Shown in pieces: positions 4,452-32,939 of a stretch of 32,939 nt of DNA (positions within the stretch are counted from its first letter, which is position 1; each line of letters opens with the position of its first letter). The translations under genes were made by a program, and so were the position numbers. The stretch spans positions 1-32,939 of IMG/VR virus record IMGVR_UViG_3300034106_002158; one strand, written 5' to 3'. The DNA comes from a virus. Under the pieces are notes generated by a model that saw only the letters and a program-made list of their open reading frames with translations, was not told the DNA's origin and made no database searches.

Positions 4452-4703
4452 TTACCACCGGAACGCCGCCCCGCAATACCGGCACACCTTCGCTTCGGCC
4501 TTGACATGCTCGGCACACTGGCCGCAGACCTTCGTCGGTTCGGCGGCTGGTTTGCGTGTCACGCTAGACACCGCGTACAACAACAACGCCAATGGCCCGA
4601 GCATTGCACCTGCGACGAAACCGATAGCCGCGTTCCAACCGCGTGCCTTCGCCGCACAAAACCCAACGAATCCCCAAAGAACCAACCAAATGACAATTTC
4701 CAT
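4452..4703 (-). CDS. Two-TM membrane protein with C-terminal zinc ribbon, 83 aa
   Basis: The ATG at 4703 has AAGGAG six bases upstream. Residues ~3-18 and ~26-48 are hydrophobic and likely span the inner membrane. The C-terminal tail carries Cys60-x2-Cys63 and Cys74-x2-Cys77, a zinc-ribbon pair, ending YCGAAFRW. Small 'membrane plus zinc ribbon' proteins are widespread and mostly uncharacterised. It is the last gene of the recombination block before the regulatory gap. Topology is predicted by eye. Confidence 0.8.
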   Translation of the reverse strand: MEIVIWLVLWGFVGFCAAKARGWNAAIGFVAGAMLGPLALLLYAVSSVTRKPAAEPTKVCGQCAEHVKAEAKVCRYCGAAFRW

Positions 4704-4711
4704 GATGCTCC

Positions 4712-4936
4712 TTACAGGCTATCCATCTTCGGGAACGTGCAGTCCATCGACCACATCAGGTTGCGTCCGCAGGCTTCGCGGGCGTGCTTCGCGTCACGCC
4801 AGCCCGCAGCCGCGTATCCGTTCAGCGGCTCTGGACGGCCACGCAGGTAGCCACGCCAACCCGCCGTGTACCACGATTCCCGCAGCATGGCAAGCCGCGC
4901 CGTTTCCAAGTCGGTAAGTTCGTCAATGTCGCTCAT
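4712..4936 (-). CDS. Hypothetical 74-aa protein, Trp/Arg-rich
   Basis: The ATG at 4936 has AAGGAG eight bases upstream; the longer ATG at 5005 would overlap the RecT-like gene and has no site. The N-terminus is acidic (MSDIDELTDLETARLAML), followed by an aromatic Gly/Arg segment (SWYTAGWRGYLRGRPEPLNG, then AAGWRDAKHARE). This size and composition are seen in small phage proteins but I cannot name a family. It sits between the RecT-like gene and the zinc-ribbon membrane protein. Confidence 0.7.
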   Translation of the reverse strand: MSDIDELTDLETARLAMLRESWYTAGWRGYLRGRPEPLNGYAAAGWRDAKHAREACGRNLMWSMDCTFPKMDSL

Positions 4937-5001
4937 CGCTTTGCTCCTTAAACCATGCCCACGCACTTTCGCACGCGGGCAGGTCCACCGCACACAGAGA
5001 T

Positions 5002-5697
5002 TCATCCGGCCAACGCCGCCGCCGCGGTCGCCGCCGTGTCTTCCTTCGTGCCGTCGTCGTATTCCTCAACCATGCCGATACCCATCAGAGCATCCGCAAA
5101 CTGGTCACGCAACGCGAACGCACGGGCACGGTTCTGGAGCATCCGATCTGGGTACTTCGCCCACACATCGCCAGCCAGGCCAGCCCGCTTCGCATCGTCA
5201 GCACCGAACCGCTGCACCGCGTCCGGGCATCCCTTCCGGTGAACGGTCACGGTACAAGCACGCTCCATTCCGCTTCCGGTCCAGACGCACTCGATACCAG
5301 CCCAGTCCCGATGCCGCTGGCACAGTGCTACGGCCAGATCGCCCCAGATGCACAGACGGCCACGGATGTAGGCGATGTTTGAAAGCGACTCACGCGGGCC
5401 GATGCCGAGCGACTTGCCAGCCTCGATGATGCACAGCACGCGGGCCATGACCTTCTGGCTGTTCCCTTCGCAATCCTTGATCGACGGAGCAGGCACCGCC
5501 CCGCCTTCGATGTAGACCTTGGCGAGCCTGAAAGCACCTTCGAGCGTAGTGACCTCAAACCCACGTTCGCCCATTGTCACGGGCGGCAGTGCAACCCGCT
5601 TCGCCATGATTGCATCCATATCGCCGGATGCCTTCGGTGCAGGTGCGGCTTCGCTCAACGCCGCGTCGATGTCTTGTGCTGTCGGTAGTTGTCCCAT
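5002..5697 (-). CDS. recT: RecT-family single-strand annealing protein, 231 aa
   Basis: The ATG at 5697 follows GAGGAG and starts 11 bases after the exonuclease stop. The core fits RecT/Bet annealing proteins: an early 'F..A..L...G..P.S' region (FRLAKVYIEGGAVPAPSIKD), then 'VMARVLCIIEAGKSLGIGP.E.LSNIAYIRGRLCIWGD' with the typical glycine-rich look-up segment, then RHRDWAGIE and GDVWAKYPDRMLQNRARAFALRDQFADAL near the C-terminus. The tail is acidic and Ala-rich. RecT proteins anneal complementary single strands and work with a 5' exonuclease, here the adjacent PDDEXK gene. Confidence 0.82.
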   Translation of the reverse strand: MGQLPTAQDIDAALSEAAPAPKASGDMDAIMAKRVALPPVTMGERGFEVTTLEGAFRLAKVYIEGGAVPAPSIKDCEGNSQKVMARVLCIIEAGKSLGIGPRESLSNIAYIRGRLCIWGDLAVALCQRHRDWAGIECVWTGSGMERACTVTVHRKGCPDAVQRFGADDAKRAGLAGDVWAKYPDRMLQNRARAFALRDQFADALMGIGMVEEYDDGTKEDTAATAAAALAG

Positions 5698-5708
5698 TGC
5701 GTTTCTCC

Positions 5709-6566
5709 TCAGAACGGGTGTTCGGAATCGGTGCCGCTGTCCGCCCATTCAATCGGCAGCGATGATTGGAATGCCCACTCGGGCACGGTGATTTCCTGCG
5801 GTTCGGTTGCGTGGTGGTTCGCCGCTTGCGTCGATGCGGTACGCACCCAGTCGTAGTACGCCTTGACGGTGCGGTCATTCAGTTGGCGGGCCGCTTCGAT
5901 CTGGTCCGCTGGCAACGTGTAGAGGCCGACACTGTACGGCGTGGATGATTCGACGGCAACGAACAGGAACGGCACACGCACGCCGTAGACCGCATGCACG
6001 ATGTCGATGTACCACGCGGCCTGCTGTGCGTATCCGTACCGTGCGACCGACCGGGCAAACCCGGAAGGTGTCGCGTCCTGCGTGGTCTTCCAGTCGATGA
6101 TAATGGCGGGCTTGTCGTCACGCATGACCAGACGGTCAATCATCGCCTTGCGTCCATCGGCCTGTAGCACCAGTTCCGCCATGCCGGGCCTGATCAGAAT
6201 CCGCCGCACGTACTCCACGGTTTGCAGGCTGGCGACAATCGCCCGGCATCTATCCAGATCGTTGCGAGTCGTCGCGTCTTCGACAATGATCGCATCAGGC
6301 GGCAGCGTGCCGGTCCACGTTTCCCACGCCTCTTTGCCTGCCTTCGTGCGGCGGTCAATGCCTTCTGGACGCACGGCATACCGAGCATCCCACCCATCGC
6401 CCACACGCATCGCATCGTGCAGCATGGACCCCAGCGATGTCTGCCGCGACTCAAACGACAGCAGCCCGCACAATGCCGCGTGCATCTTCGGCAGGCTGGT
6501 TCTACCGTGCTTGACGGCGGAGAAGTTGACGGCCTTGATCTGGTCGTAGTCGGTACGTTCGCTCAT
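5709..6566 (-). CDS. PDDEXK exonuclease (RecE/YqaJ/DUF3799-like), 285 aa
   Basis: The ATG at 6566 follows GAGGAGCAA; the longer frame lacks a site. The restriction-endonuclease fold is marked by LGSMLHDA (His50), AELVLQ (Glu131), a metal-binding AMIDRL (Asp144), IIIDWKTT (Asp158, Lys160) and YAQQAAWYI (~179-187), the usual order for RecE/Cas4-like nucleases that resect one strand 5' to 3'. It precedes the RecT-like gene, forming the classic nuclease/annealase pair for replication-linked recombination. Catalytic residues all appear present. The exact subfamily (DUF3799 or YqaJ) is not certain. Confidence 0.85.
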   Translation of the reverse strand: MSERTDYDQIKAVNFSAVKHGRTSLPKMHAALCGLLSFESRQTSLGSMLHDAMRVGDGWDARYAVRPEGIDRRTKAGKEAWETWTGTLPPDAIIVEDATTRNDLDRCRAIVASLQTVEYVRRILIRPGMAELVLQADGRKAMIDRLVMRDDKPAIIIDWKTTQDATPSGFARSVARYGYAQQAAWYIDIVHAVYGVRVPFLFVAVESSTPYSVGLYTLPADQIEAARQLNDRTVKAYYDWVRTASTQAANHHATEPQEITVPEWAFQSSLPIEWADSGTDSEHPF

Positions 6567-6701
6567 TGTATTGCTCCTCAAAAACGCCGCCGCACCAACA
6601 AGGCACGGCAGCACTACAGCGGCTCTTAACAATGTTCAACCGCACCAACGGAGAACGCCGCCGAAATGACCGCTTCAGCGTTAGCCTGGCGGTCGTGGTT
6701 G

Positions 6702-7568: not shown

Positions 7569-7793
7569 TCAGAGGATTCTGCGTTCGTCGTTGATGCGTC
7601 CGAGCCAATACGCCGCCTGCCGAGAGCGGTCAGACAGTTCGTAGAAAAAATCCATCGTGTCGCCCTGCTCACGGTCGATGGTTGTGATGTGGTCGGTGAT
7701 CTGCCGCGAAAGTTCGGCAACGAGCTTGCGGATCGCCTCGGCCTTGTCTGCGAATCCGTTGACCGCCGCCGCGTGTTCTGGTGAAATCTTCAT
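7569..7793 (-). CDS. Hypothetical 74-aa helical protein
   Basis: The ATG at 7793 follows GAGGAG, and the leader plus first codons are identical to those of the Csx16-like gene. The product is almost fully helical with heptad-like spacing (GFADKAEAIRKLVAELSRQI, then YELSDRSRQAAYWLGRINDE), so a coiled-coil oligomer is likely. No motif is recognised. It directly follows the Csx16-like gene and could be co-expressed with it. Confidence 0.75.
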   Translation of the reverse strand: MKISPEHAAAVNGFADKAEAIRKLVAELSRQITDHITTIDREQGDTMDFFYELSDRSRQAAYWLGRINDERRIL

Positions 7794-7806
7794 GGTGTCT
7801 CCTCAA
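7789..7806 (-). repeat. 18-bp direct repeat at the 3' end of the Csx16-like gene
   Basis: Minus strand TTGAGGAGACACCATGAA, identical to 8191-8208. It holds the stop of the upstream gene (TGA), the ribosome binding site and the next ATG. Together the two copies bracket the Csx16-like gene. Confidence 0.9.
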
Positions 7807-8195
7807 TCGTTGCTGTCACGATACCCGGCTGGTCCAATGGGACCGGCCACGTATTCTGCCTGATGCTGGCGATACCGACCGTTCGGCCCGATTCGTCCAC
7901 CTGCCGCGTCGATGTACGGCAGGTCGATGACACGGTACAAGGCCAGTTGTGCCCCAGCGGCTACCATCGCCGCCGCGTCTAGTTCGCTTCCGCGCGGCGG
8001 AGTCGAAAACTCCACTGCCACCACAGCAGCCGCGTACGCGGCCAGATGCAGCGGGATGTTGCCAAACACCACCTTGCCCGCCACATCTGCGACAGCGGCG
8101 TTCCCGGAAATTACCGGAGTGTTCTCAGGAAGCCTGGCTTCCTTGATGATCCAAGCGGCGGTTGCCGCGTGCCGACTGATAATGACTGCTTTCAT
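7803..8195 (-). CDS. csx16-like: Csx16-like protein (Cas_VVA1548 family), putative ring nuclease, 130 aa
   Basis: The ATG at 8195 follows GAGGAG. The protein shows the Csx16 layout: first strand VIISRHAATAAW (Ser7-Arg8-His9, Trp15), then KVVFGNIPLHLAAYAA (~41-56, the 'GtLPvnlAa' motif), then PPRGSEL (~66-72) and GAQLALYRV (~81-89). Residues 91-130 are a Gly/Pro-rich tail not expected in the family. Csx16 is normally linked to type III CRISPR-Cas, where it is proposed to remove cyclic oligoadenylate. No cas gene is nearby, so in a phage it could damp that alarm, as AcrIII-1 does by another fold. The family call is by eye; the anti-CRISPR role is inference. Confidence 0.7.
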   Translation of the reverse strand: MKAVIISRHAATAAWIIKEARLPENTPVISGNAAVADVAGKVVFGNIPLHLAAYAAAVVAVEFSTPPRGSELDAAAMVAAGAQLALYRVIDLPYIDAAGGRIGPNGRYRQHQAEYVAGPIGPAGYRDSND

Positions 8196-8208
8196 GGTGT
8201 CTCCTCAA
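8191..8208 (-). repeat. 18-bp direct repeat at the 5' end of the Csx16-like gene
   Basis: Identical to 7789-7806. It carries the TGA of the 88-aa gene, GAGGAG and the ATG of the Csx16-like gene. Such a stop-SD-start junction is a natural homology patch for swapping single genes in and out. Confidence 0.9.
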
Positions 8209-8471
8209 CGCTTGGCAAGGTACGAACGCAACACACGTTCCGCCGTTGCCCGTGCAAATCCACGTACTCCGGTTTCCTGTTCGATTTCAAGGCTGGCGAT
8301 GATGCGGGCCTTCTCGTCCTTGGAGAGCCATCCGTTCGTGATAACCGCACGAATCGGAGGCTCTGCCATTCCCCATGAGAAGAACCAGCCCCTGCGGTCT
8401 TCTGATCCGATGTACCCAACAGCATTGCCATTCTCATCGGTGCAATCGTGTGCTGAAATCGTGAGTTTCAT
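8205..8471 (-). CDS. Hypothetical 88-aa protein, first gene of the early operon
   Basis: The ATG at 8471 is preceded by GAGGAC about 10 bases upstream. The product is compact and mixed alpha/beta (MKLTISAHDCTDENG..., then RGWFFSWGMAEPPIRAVITN), with a basic helical C-terminus. No family is recognised. It is the first gene after the candidate promoter at 8491-8542 and directly precedes the Csx16-like gene, a usual place for host-takeover genes, but nothing in it proves such a role. Confidence 0.7.
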   Translation of the reverse strand: MKLTISAHDCTDENGNAVGYIGSEDRRGWFFSWGMAEPPIRAVITNGWLSKDEKARIIASLEIEQETGVRGFARATAERVLRSYLAKR

Positions 8472-8490
8472 TGGTGCGGTCCTCGTTTGA

Positions 8491-8542
8491 GTCAGGCCTA
8501 TTCCTGACCCATTACTCTACGGTACTATATCGTACCGTTCAA
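8491..8542 (-). promoter_or_regulatory. Candidate early promoter with two palindromic operators
   Basis: On the minus strand TTGAAC (8542-8537) and TAGAGT (8519-8514) are 17 bases apart, a plausible sigma70-type pair. The spacer holds a near-perfect 20-bp palindrome, ACGGTAC-6-GTACCGT (8519-8538). A second palindrome, GTCAGG-6-CCTGAC (8491-8508), covers the expected start site. This sits in the 147-bp gap between the last late gene and the first early gene, 20 bases before the 8471 ATG. Two operators on one promoter suggest repression, perhaps by one of the phage's small DNA-binding proteins. Confidence 0.6.
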
Positions 8543-8618
8543 GCCCAAGGTACACATTCTGCACCCGATTCTTTCAAATCGTCAGCAGCACCCTAACGGG
8601 CCGTTTGGTGTCGGTTTG

Positions 8619-31439: not shown

Positions 31440-31761
31440 TGCCAACCTCCTTGCACGCCGCCGCGAGGGCCGCGACGAGGGATGTACCAGTTCCGTACCA
31501 CGTCCACACACCACTCGATAGCTCGCGGTCATTCTCCGGCCAACCGACAAGGTTGCCAGAGACAATGACAGTTCGCTTTGATCCGTCATGCTTCCTGCTG
31601 AGCCGAGACAACATGCTGCCGACGAAGGCGGTTTCGGCTACGGATGTCAGAATCGCCGACGTTTGTTCTGTGTCAACGAACCAACCGTCCTCCCATTCAA
31701 GTTCCGGCCACGCCTCCCGCGGCACATCACGCACGATTTCGTATAGGTCAGTTGCCGTCAT
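31429..31761 (-). CDS. Hypothetical 110-aa protein (complete copy)
   Basis: The ATG at 31761 has AAAGGA about 10 bases upstream. The product is Trp-rich and acidic at the start (EIVRDVPREAWPELEWEDGW), then FVGSMLSRLSRKHDGSKRTV, then NLVGWPENDRELSSGVWTWY and a helical end. This composition recalls small phage proteins of unknown function. The first 32 codons recur at the window start, where a different gene lies upstream. Confidence 0.72.
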   Translation of the reverse strand: MTATDLYEIVRDVPREAWPELEWEDGWFVDTEQTSAILTSVAETAFVGSMLSRLSRKHDGSKRTVIVSGNLVGWPENDRELSSGVWTWYGTGTSLVAALAAACKEVGNDG

Positions 31762-31790
31762 CGTTCACCGTCCTTTCAATCCCCACCACA
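31665..31790. repeat. 126-bp direct repeat, copy 2
   Basis: Identical to 1-126. It covers the leader and first 32 codons of the 110-aa gene. Its upper end coincides exactly with the inner edge of the PP-loop cassette (31791-32612). Confidence 0.97.
31778..31790. repeat. 13-bp direct repeat downstream of the PP-loop gene
   Basis: AATCCCCACCACA on the plus strand, also at 32613-32625 and, within the longer AATCCCCACCACACCCGG, at 114-131. On the minus strand it reads TGTGGTGGGGATT and supplies a GGTGGGG ribosome-binding element. Confidence 0.85.
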
Positions 31791-31793
31791 TCA

Positions 31794-32612
31794 TCAATCC
31801 GTGCATTGGCACGGCAACGTGTCATCCTCAACCGCATCGTCGTACAACTGCCCCTGCACAGTGATCTGCGTGAGCATCTGCCGATACGTCGGGCGGTCGA
31901 TTCTGAACGGCATCCCTTTGCGTTCCTCTTGTTCCGCCCACCAAAGAGCCGCGTCCGGATTTGCTCTCGCAATCTTCTCCAGTTTTGCACGCGACTTGAG
32001 GAAGCACATATCGCAGTTGCCGAACGTGTTGTCTCCTCCGGGCAACATCAGATCAAACGGATGCTGTTGCCAAAAGTGAAGTACGTCGTCAATGGTGTGA
32101 CCGGCCTTTGCCATTGGCGTTCTTGCCGTCACGCTCTTGTTGATCGTTCCGACGTTTGCCACCCGTCGCGGCTCATCAGCACGTAAGCCAAGCACCGCGT
32201 CATACTCATCAAATCCGCCCGACTTTGCCCACTGGTGCGCCGTCCAGATCTTTAACTGCTTCGTGCAGTTTCGAGCAATCGGGTTCGGAAGCACCTTCAT
32301 CGAGTCAATCAGCATTGCAAACGGCTCCCCGTTCCTGCTGGCTCCGCAGTAGTCCACCACCTTGAATCCCTTGACACCATCAATGAATGTGAACTCAAGC
32401 CAGGTGATCGGTACGGCCCAACGCTCCGACATCTCCTTGAGAAATGCCAGCGTTGCTTCATGTTCCTTGCCGGTGTTCTGGAACACCGCACGCACATCGT
32501 CAGGGAGCGTTCCTCCATGCGCGTCAAGAATCTTCCGCAGCATGAATCCGCTGGTTCGACCTCCGCTCACCTGAATGAGTGCTGGACCTTCGATGAAATA
32601 CGGGTTGTTCAT
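31794..32612 (-). CDS. PP-loop ATPase of the PAPS reductase-like family, 272 aa
   Basis: The ATG at 32612 follows GGTGGGG; the longer ATG at 32699 has no site. Features: PP-loop LIQVSGGRTSGFML (~12-25), VFQNTGKEHEATLAFLKEMS, RNCTKQLKIW (conserved Cys), LGLRADEPRR, and a Cys pair GNCDMCFLKS, with PCQCTD at the C-terminus. Such phage proteins are often labelled PAPS reductase/sulfotransferase; they activate a substrate by adenylation, possibly for sulfur or nucleotide chemistry. No dnd, ssp or queuosine partner is nearby, so the substrate is unknown. Confidence 0.82.
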   Translation of the reverse strand: MNNPYFIEGPALIQVSGGRTSGFMLRKILDAHGGTLPDDVRAVFQNTGKEHEATLAFLKEMSERWAVPITWLEFTFIDGVKGFKVVDYCGASRNGEPFAMLIDSMKVLPNPIARNCTKQLKIWTAHQWAKSGGFDEYDAVLGLRADEPRRVANVGTINKSVTARTPMAKAGHTIDDVLHFWQQHPFDLMLPGGDNTFGNCDMCFLKSRAKLEKIARANPDAALWWAEQEERKGMPFRIDRPTYRQMLTQITVQGQLYDDAVEDDTLPCQCTD

Positions 32613-32630
32613 AATCCCCACCACACCCGG
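32613..32630. repeat. 18-bp repeat upstream of the PP-loop gene
   Basis: AATCCCCACCACACCCGG, identical to 114-131. The first 13 bases also occur at 31778-31790. The matches place the same leader before the PP-loop gene and, in the other arrangement, before the 110-aa gene. Confidence 0.9.
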
Positions 32631-32805
32631 CAGGATGGGATGGGTTTGTGATAGGTGGGCTGAATGCTGAACTCGGTCTTGCGTGATGGTCTTTGTCAAT
32701 GTCCCGCACAGGGGTATTTGAGAGTGTCCATCAGGTTGGCAGTGCCGGTTCGCTACTCCAACATCACTGCATCCAGCCCACTTTGTTCAAACCGCGTGCG
32801 TTCCT
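32631..32805. other. Non-coding stretch upstream of the PP-loop gene
   Basis: I see no ORF with a ribosome binding site here; an in-frame extension of the PP-loop ORF (to 32699) is possible but unsupported. No clear promoter or terminator is visible. Confidence 0.4.
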
Positions 32806-32937
32806 TCAACGCCTCGCCTGCTCCAACGCCGCGACGATGGCGGACCGCAGCACGGACGGATCGTTGCCCATCTGCAACTCGTCTGCGTTCATTGCCGCCG
32901 TGAGGATCTGTGCCACCGTTTCATTGTCACTTGTCAT
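32806..32937 (-). CDS. Small helical protein or truncated gene, 43 aa
   Basis: An ATG at 32937, two bases from the window edge, opens 43 codons ending in TGA. The ribosome site would lie outside the window. MTSDNETVAQILTAAMNADE, then SVLRSAIVAALEQARR, resembles the first 40 residues of the 156-aa protein and the 62-aa protein. It ends exactly after the shared motif, so it may be a complete mini-version or a degraded 5' remnant of such a gene in the alternative branch. Confidence 0.55.
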   Translation of the reverse strand: MTSDNETVAQILTAAMNADELQMGNDPSVLRSAIVAALEQARR

Positions 32938-32939
32938 TG

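Follow-up and report, generated by a model that had tools for sequence, protein, structure and literature searches.

We analysed an IMG/VR virus record of 32,939 bases (this whole stretch is hereafter called the window), in which, by sequence comparison, one small gene (7803-8195, minus strand, stop codon included; 130 aa) encodes a member of the Csx16 family. The product is probably a virus-borne anti-CRISPR ring nuclease, which would bind cyclic oligoadenylate (cOA, probably cA4), open its ring and thereby silence the type III CRISPR-Cas effectors of the host.

Family membership is shown by several profiles. The protein matches PF09652 (Cas_VVA1548, Csx16) over profile positions 2-90 of 91 with an E value of 9e-9 and a score of 35.9 bits, the curated gathering score being 25 bits, and it matches three PADLOC Csx16 models (best 1.3e-8). 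When the 16-member clade containing the window protein was compared by hhalign with three CRISPR-linked Csx16 proteins, the alignment spanned the whole domain (94 columns) at 97.9% probability and an E value of 6e-13. The initial annotation had read Csx16 from the sequence and suggested a profile comparison as its check; that comparison returned a high-probability match, and both the PF09652 score and the hhalign result bear the family call out. PF09652 was found in 44 of the 46 aligned members (E <= 0.001) and PADLOC Csx16 in 45 of them. Csx16 also occurs fused to CARF effectors, as represented by the PADLOC models CARF2--CARF_HEPN_CSX16 and CARF8--CARF_CSX16_TM, which match 35 and 16 members of the set of relatives, respectively. 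The NCBIfam model TIGR02620 (Csx16, hypothetical equivalog domain) gives the window protein 18.7, below its cut-off of 46.35, and the protein is therefore a divergent member; among its relatives, L027 (16.3) and L042 (33.0) also fall below this cut-off, and L023 (93.7) lies above it. In PHROGs, neither the window protein nor its group of relatives has a family.

H9, G45 and P48 are invariant in all 53 aligned members, and R8, R68 and G69 are present in 52 of the 53; all six are kept in the window protein and in viral and CRISPR-linked copies alike. The copies differ in the length of the segment from the LA to the RG motif, read directly from the sequences: it comprises 21 residues in the CRISPR-linked copies and in two viral copies of CRISPR type, 17-18 in most other viral lineages, and 15-16 in the window clade, a consistent shortening of 3-6 residues before the R-G motif relative to the CRISPR-linked copies. 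The window protein is 34% identical to the Csx16 of A. tepidum. In the tree, it falls within a set of 16 rows (support 95/84), all of them viral except one contig of a metagenome-assembled genome (MAG), L071. The CRISPR-linked copies fall elsewhere, together with L023, L024 and the copies of archaeal viruses, a separation that is to be read with a weakly supported deeper fork (57/63) and three CRISPR plasmid sequences only.

Hoikkala et al. demonstrated cleavage of cA4, but not of cA6, by one representative CRISPR Csx16 (PMC12409355); the window clade is divergent. Given its homology and the invariant residues that it retains, the window protein most likely acts on cOA as well. It would bind the messenger, probably cA4, and cleave the ring, possibly as a dimer; we found no catalytic residues of Csx16 in the literature consulted, and R8, H9 and R68 are candidates for the active site. 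With cOA destroyed, cA4-dependent effectors such as Csx1 would stay inactive and type III signalling would be blocked during infection, and the benefit to the phage would be counter-defence. A blocker of type III signalling is the most economical reading, strengthened by the unexpected viral family and the published cA4 activity of a CRISPR Csx16. The main competing explanation, which we consider unlikely, is that the pocket for cyclic nucleotides persists in the viral clade with a different ligand or chemistry, the protein acting as a sponge or as a nuclease for another messenger such as a CBASS cyclic trinucleotide. The strong divergence from the CRISPR-linked copies and the shortening before R-G would fit such a change, but the invariant R/H/G/P residues held in common with CRISPR-linked Csx16 persist. 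Phages are known to use sponges, and Csx15 binds cA4 well while being a slow nuclease; on the other hand, the type III messenger is so abundant that sponging may be fruitless (PMC13148439).

In the AlphaFold2 model of the window protein (mean pLDDT 85, pTM 0.78), the alpha/beta core is predicted with confidence (pLDDT 92-97) and the tail with less. In a VIA-align search of the PDB, the first match was a Sulfolobus protein-cA4 complex (9jxx, Z 6.0, 94 residues, 3.4 A) and the second AFV3-109 (2j6b, Z 4.6, 71 residues, 2.2 A), both Z values being below 8, a range in which unrelated Rossmann-like folds also score. AFV3-109, a viral homologue of AcrIII-1/Crn2, is also the significant DALI match of the published Csx16 model (Z 4.8; PMC12409355). 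The initial annotation had supposed a fold different from that of AcrIII-1, which finds no support here, the second-best match being an AcrIII-1 homologue. At the level of predicted models, these matches are in line with the result from sequence and prove neither it nor common descent; they could reflect a general Rossmann-like resemblance. Other structural matches of the predicted models were generic, formyltransferases and response regulators among them, and Foldseek against the PDB and BFVD gave nothing significant. A second model, of the virus-borne CRISPR-type copy L023 (pLDDT 95), had mostly general Rossmann-like matches, including the CARF ring nucleases 7z55 (Z 4.2) and 7ygh (Z 4.0) as well as Cam1. 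Searching the PDB by sequence with Csx16 gave nothing significant, and no solved structure of the enzyme family was found in this way. Neither the window record nor any of the 46 related viral records contained a match to PF08960 (DUF1874).

Relatives are spread widely through uncultivated viruses. Besides the window, at least 52 IMG/VR contigs carry one, comprising 45 loci and four further contigs from motif scans, and L020, L023 and L024 from DNA patterns; these counts are lower bounds, the scans requiring exact motifs, and they contain near-duplicates (L010/L014, L029/L030, L061/L070) and one locus, L020, that is in frame for its second half only. Other DNA-pattern matches, such as L006 and L007, were set aside as chance matches. 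Most of the IMG/VR relatives are of the virus type with the shortened segment (15-18 versus 21 residues). A terminase (phrog_2) was recognised in 28 of the 47 viral records (27 of 46 searched relatives, and the window). Searching 50,697 phage and 72,556 plasmid records by tblastn with the window protein gave no match, and with other members only Methanobacterium viruses were found. A genome collection of 84,980 species yielded one window-type relative, L071, on a 7.7-kb MAG contig, which is probably a phage fragment because it also bears an ORF that we take to be RusA-like. Among Armatimonadota genomes, PF09652 occurs in 1 of 149, namely this phage-like contig itself. Different contigs hardly ever have neighbouring genes in common, as one would expect if an accessory gene passes between unrelated viruses. 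A role as a phage regulator or metabolic protein with the Csx16 fold and no connection to defence signalling is improbable. The many functions of Rossmann-like folds, the generic structural matches named above and the unusual tails or long extensions of some members would suit such a role, but the sequence match covers the whole domain with its invariant residues retained, and so patchy a distribution with almost no common neighbours is unlike that of a core phage gene.

Outside viruses, the plasmid pMESIL02 of Allomeiothermus silvanus encodes two Csx16-like domains (L005:5911-7926 and L079:4989-5774), each of which continues into a long C-terminal region (671 and 261 aa). This plasmid has mating-pair genes, one of its Csx16-like genes adjoins a conjugative coupling-protein gene, and no cas genes were seen around either in the stretches viewed; the fusions are possible plasmid counter-defence proteins.

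CRISPR-associated Csx16 genes stand beside type III cas genes, and the window gene does not. Neither RAMP nor Cas10 was found in the window record, and PADLOC recognised no CRISPR protein among the 54 other window ORFs. Together with the phage structural genes described below, this agrees with the initial annotation, which had called the gene phage-borne and noted the absence of a cas gene. Cas10 (PF22335) was detected in none of the 47 viral records, the window included, and in both CRISPR-plasmid controls. RAMP occurred in 1 of the 47, where the neighbouring genes match type IV csf genes. In that 55,863-bp contig (L080:6343-9840, IMGVR_UViG_3300028840_002412), two ORFs match csf2 (E 3e-16) and csf3 (E 2e-15), with scores under the NCBI cut-offs. 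They adjoin a PAPS-reductase ORF, an arrangement found in type IV-B CRISPR-cysH clusters; the contig also carries a terminase and a portal-like ORF, and its Csx16-like relative (L048) lies about 50 kb from the csf-like genes. This single contig is what favours the idea that the gene belongs to a phage-carried CRISPR system and serves as its off-switch. Cas10 is missing from the 47 viral records, RAMP occurs in one, the window shows neither, and type IV-B systems are not known to make cOA; the idea is very improbable.

On the minus strand, the gene starts with ATG at 8193-8195 and stops with TGA at 7803-7805, and a GAGGAG ribosome-binding site (8201-8206) lies 5 nt upstream of the ATG. The four motifs on which the initial annotation relied are all present in the order given: SRH (residues 7-9, 8169-8177) with W15, GNIPLHLAA (residues 45-53, 8037-8063) and PPRGSEL (residues 66-72, 7980-8000), as placed by the alignment, and GAQLALYRV (residues 81-89, 7929-7955), the last core strand according to translation and the AlphaFold2 model. 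The C-terminal tail of about 40 residues that had been described is likewise real (residues 91-130, 7806-7925); the model is less confident there, and among the aligned members this tail is confined to the window protein and L001. GNIPLHLAA resembles the ankyrin consensus, and phmmer against the PDB gives designed ankyrin proteins (up to 4e-7), but these matches are limited to the PLHLAA segment with each stretch weak alone, the Pfam scan reports no ankyrin family and the model shows an alpha/beta sheet fold instead of helix pairs, so that an ankyrin-repeat-like protein is scarcely credible. C-terminal additions vary among viral Csx16-like proteins, some bearing zinc-ribbon-like CxxC pairs or an extension of about 130 residues (L010:461-907, L029:5989-6390, L037:5989-6666).

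Within the window, the gene is the second in a run of small genes on the minus strand. It is preceded by an 88-aa gene (8205-8471), which also stands upstream of the Csx16-like gene in L001, and followed by a 74-aa gene (7569-7793) with the same GAGGAG ribosome-binding site; family searches gave no match for either. The run follows a 147-nt gap (8472-8618), a possible promoter region, in which a sigma-70-like promoter was sought and none was found. The initial annotation had placed the gene second in the likely earliest operon: the second place after the gap holds, and "earliest" finds no backing in a recognisable promoter. Downstream come genes for an exonuclease VIII-like (PDDEXK) protein (5709-6632, minus; PF12684, phrog_412) and a RecT-like annealing protein (5002-5748, minus; phrog_561). 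This position would suit an early region, and it is plausible that the gene is expressed early.

The window is a tailed phage, because terminase, portal, capsid and tail tube proteins were recognised in it; all recognised genes lie on the minus strand. An exact 126-bp repeat occurs at 1-126 and 31665-31790, which may mean that the genome is circular, at about 31.66 kb, and that 31791-32939 is an alternative branch holding one gene. The ORF on this branch (31794-32699, minus) is PAPS-reductase-like and is probably the member that matches PADLOC SspD at 9.6e-13, an inferred assignment; proteins of the SspD type belong to phosphorothioate DNA modification. The same Csx16-like gene is present in contig L001 (95% protein identity). 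The L001 phage and the window have the run of small genes in common at about 97% DNA identity, and just downstream their recombination genes differ (L001 compared with window 4470-6558): a module has been exchanged near the Csx16-like gene. Between the two, dN/dS is about 0.5, a value from 10 changes, too few to conclude from.

The window protein can be set beside several known systems. With CRISPR-linked Csx16 from Allochromatium, Aeromonas and Photobacterium plasmids, it has in common a homology over the whole domain, a core of about 100 residues, and the R-H, G..P and R-G-x-E motifs with the final strand; it differs in having no adjoining cas genes, PLHLAA in place of PVNLAA, 15 instead of 21 residues from LA to RG, an extra 40-residue tail, and a TIGR02620 score below cut-off. 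Csx16 has been counted in only two phage genomes (PMC12409355), which are probably those of the Methanobacterium viruses Drs3 and PhiF3. Like the window, these carry an annotated Cas_VVA1548/Csx16 gene and show no cas genes in the stretch viewed; unlike it, they are archaeal viruses, whose copies are about 30% identical and sit with the CRISPR-linked ones on long branches of the tree. AcrIII-1/Crn2 (DUF1874, PF08960) is also a small virus-borne protein, which destroys cA4 and blinds type III CRISPR; it belongs to a different family, linked to the window protein by the distant structural match to AFV3-109 and by no PF08960 sequence match. AcrIII-2, a viral SAVED ring nuclease, and phage Crn4b are likewise virus-carried, defence-derived and cOA-degrading (PMC12751052, PMC12830947), but AcrIII-2 is a SAVED protein with two CARF-like domains and Crn4 has an unrelated fold, and both are of other families than the window protein. 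In the literature that we found, AcrIII-1 and AcrIII-2 are the only viral ring nucleases named as type III anti-CRISPRs. The idea of viral ring nucleases is already known, from AcrIII-1, AcrIII-2 and phage Crn4b; what is new is how large and how diverged the viral Csx16-like group is.

More than 50 viral contigs carry relatives, and most of these relatives belong to lineages apart from the few CRISPR-linked copies sampled; the alignments of the set can be used directly to search for the active site of this enzyme family. It is possible, if doubtful, that the lineages of viral Csx16-like proteins constitute a large and so far overlooked class of anti-defence enzymes, present in uncultivated viruses of bacteria and archaea, whose ligand range has diverged; some would then act on a messenger different from cA4, be it one of CBASS or of systems yet unknown. 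If these relatives do cleave cOA, viruses would destroy the messenger more often than cultured phages lead one to expect.
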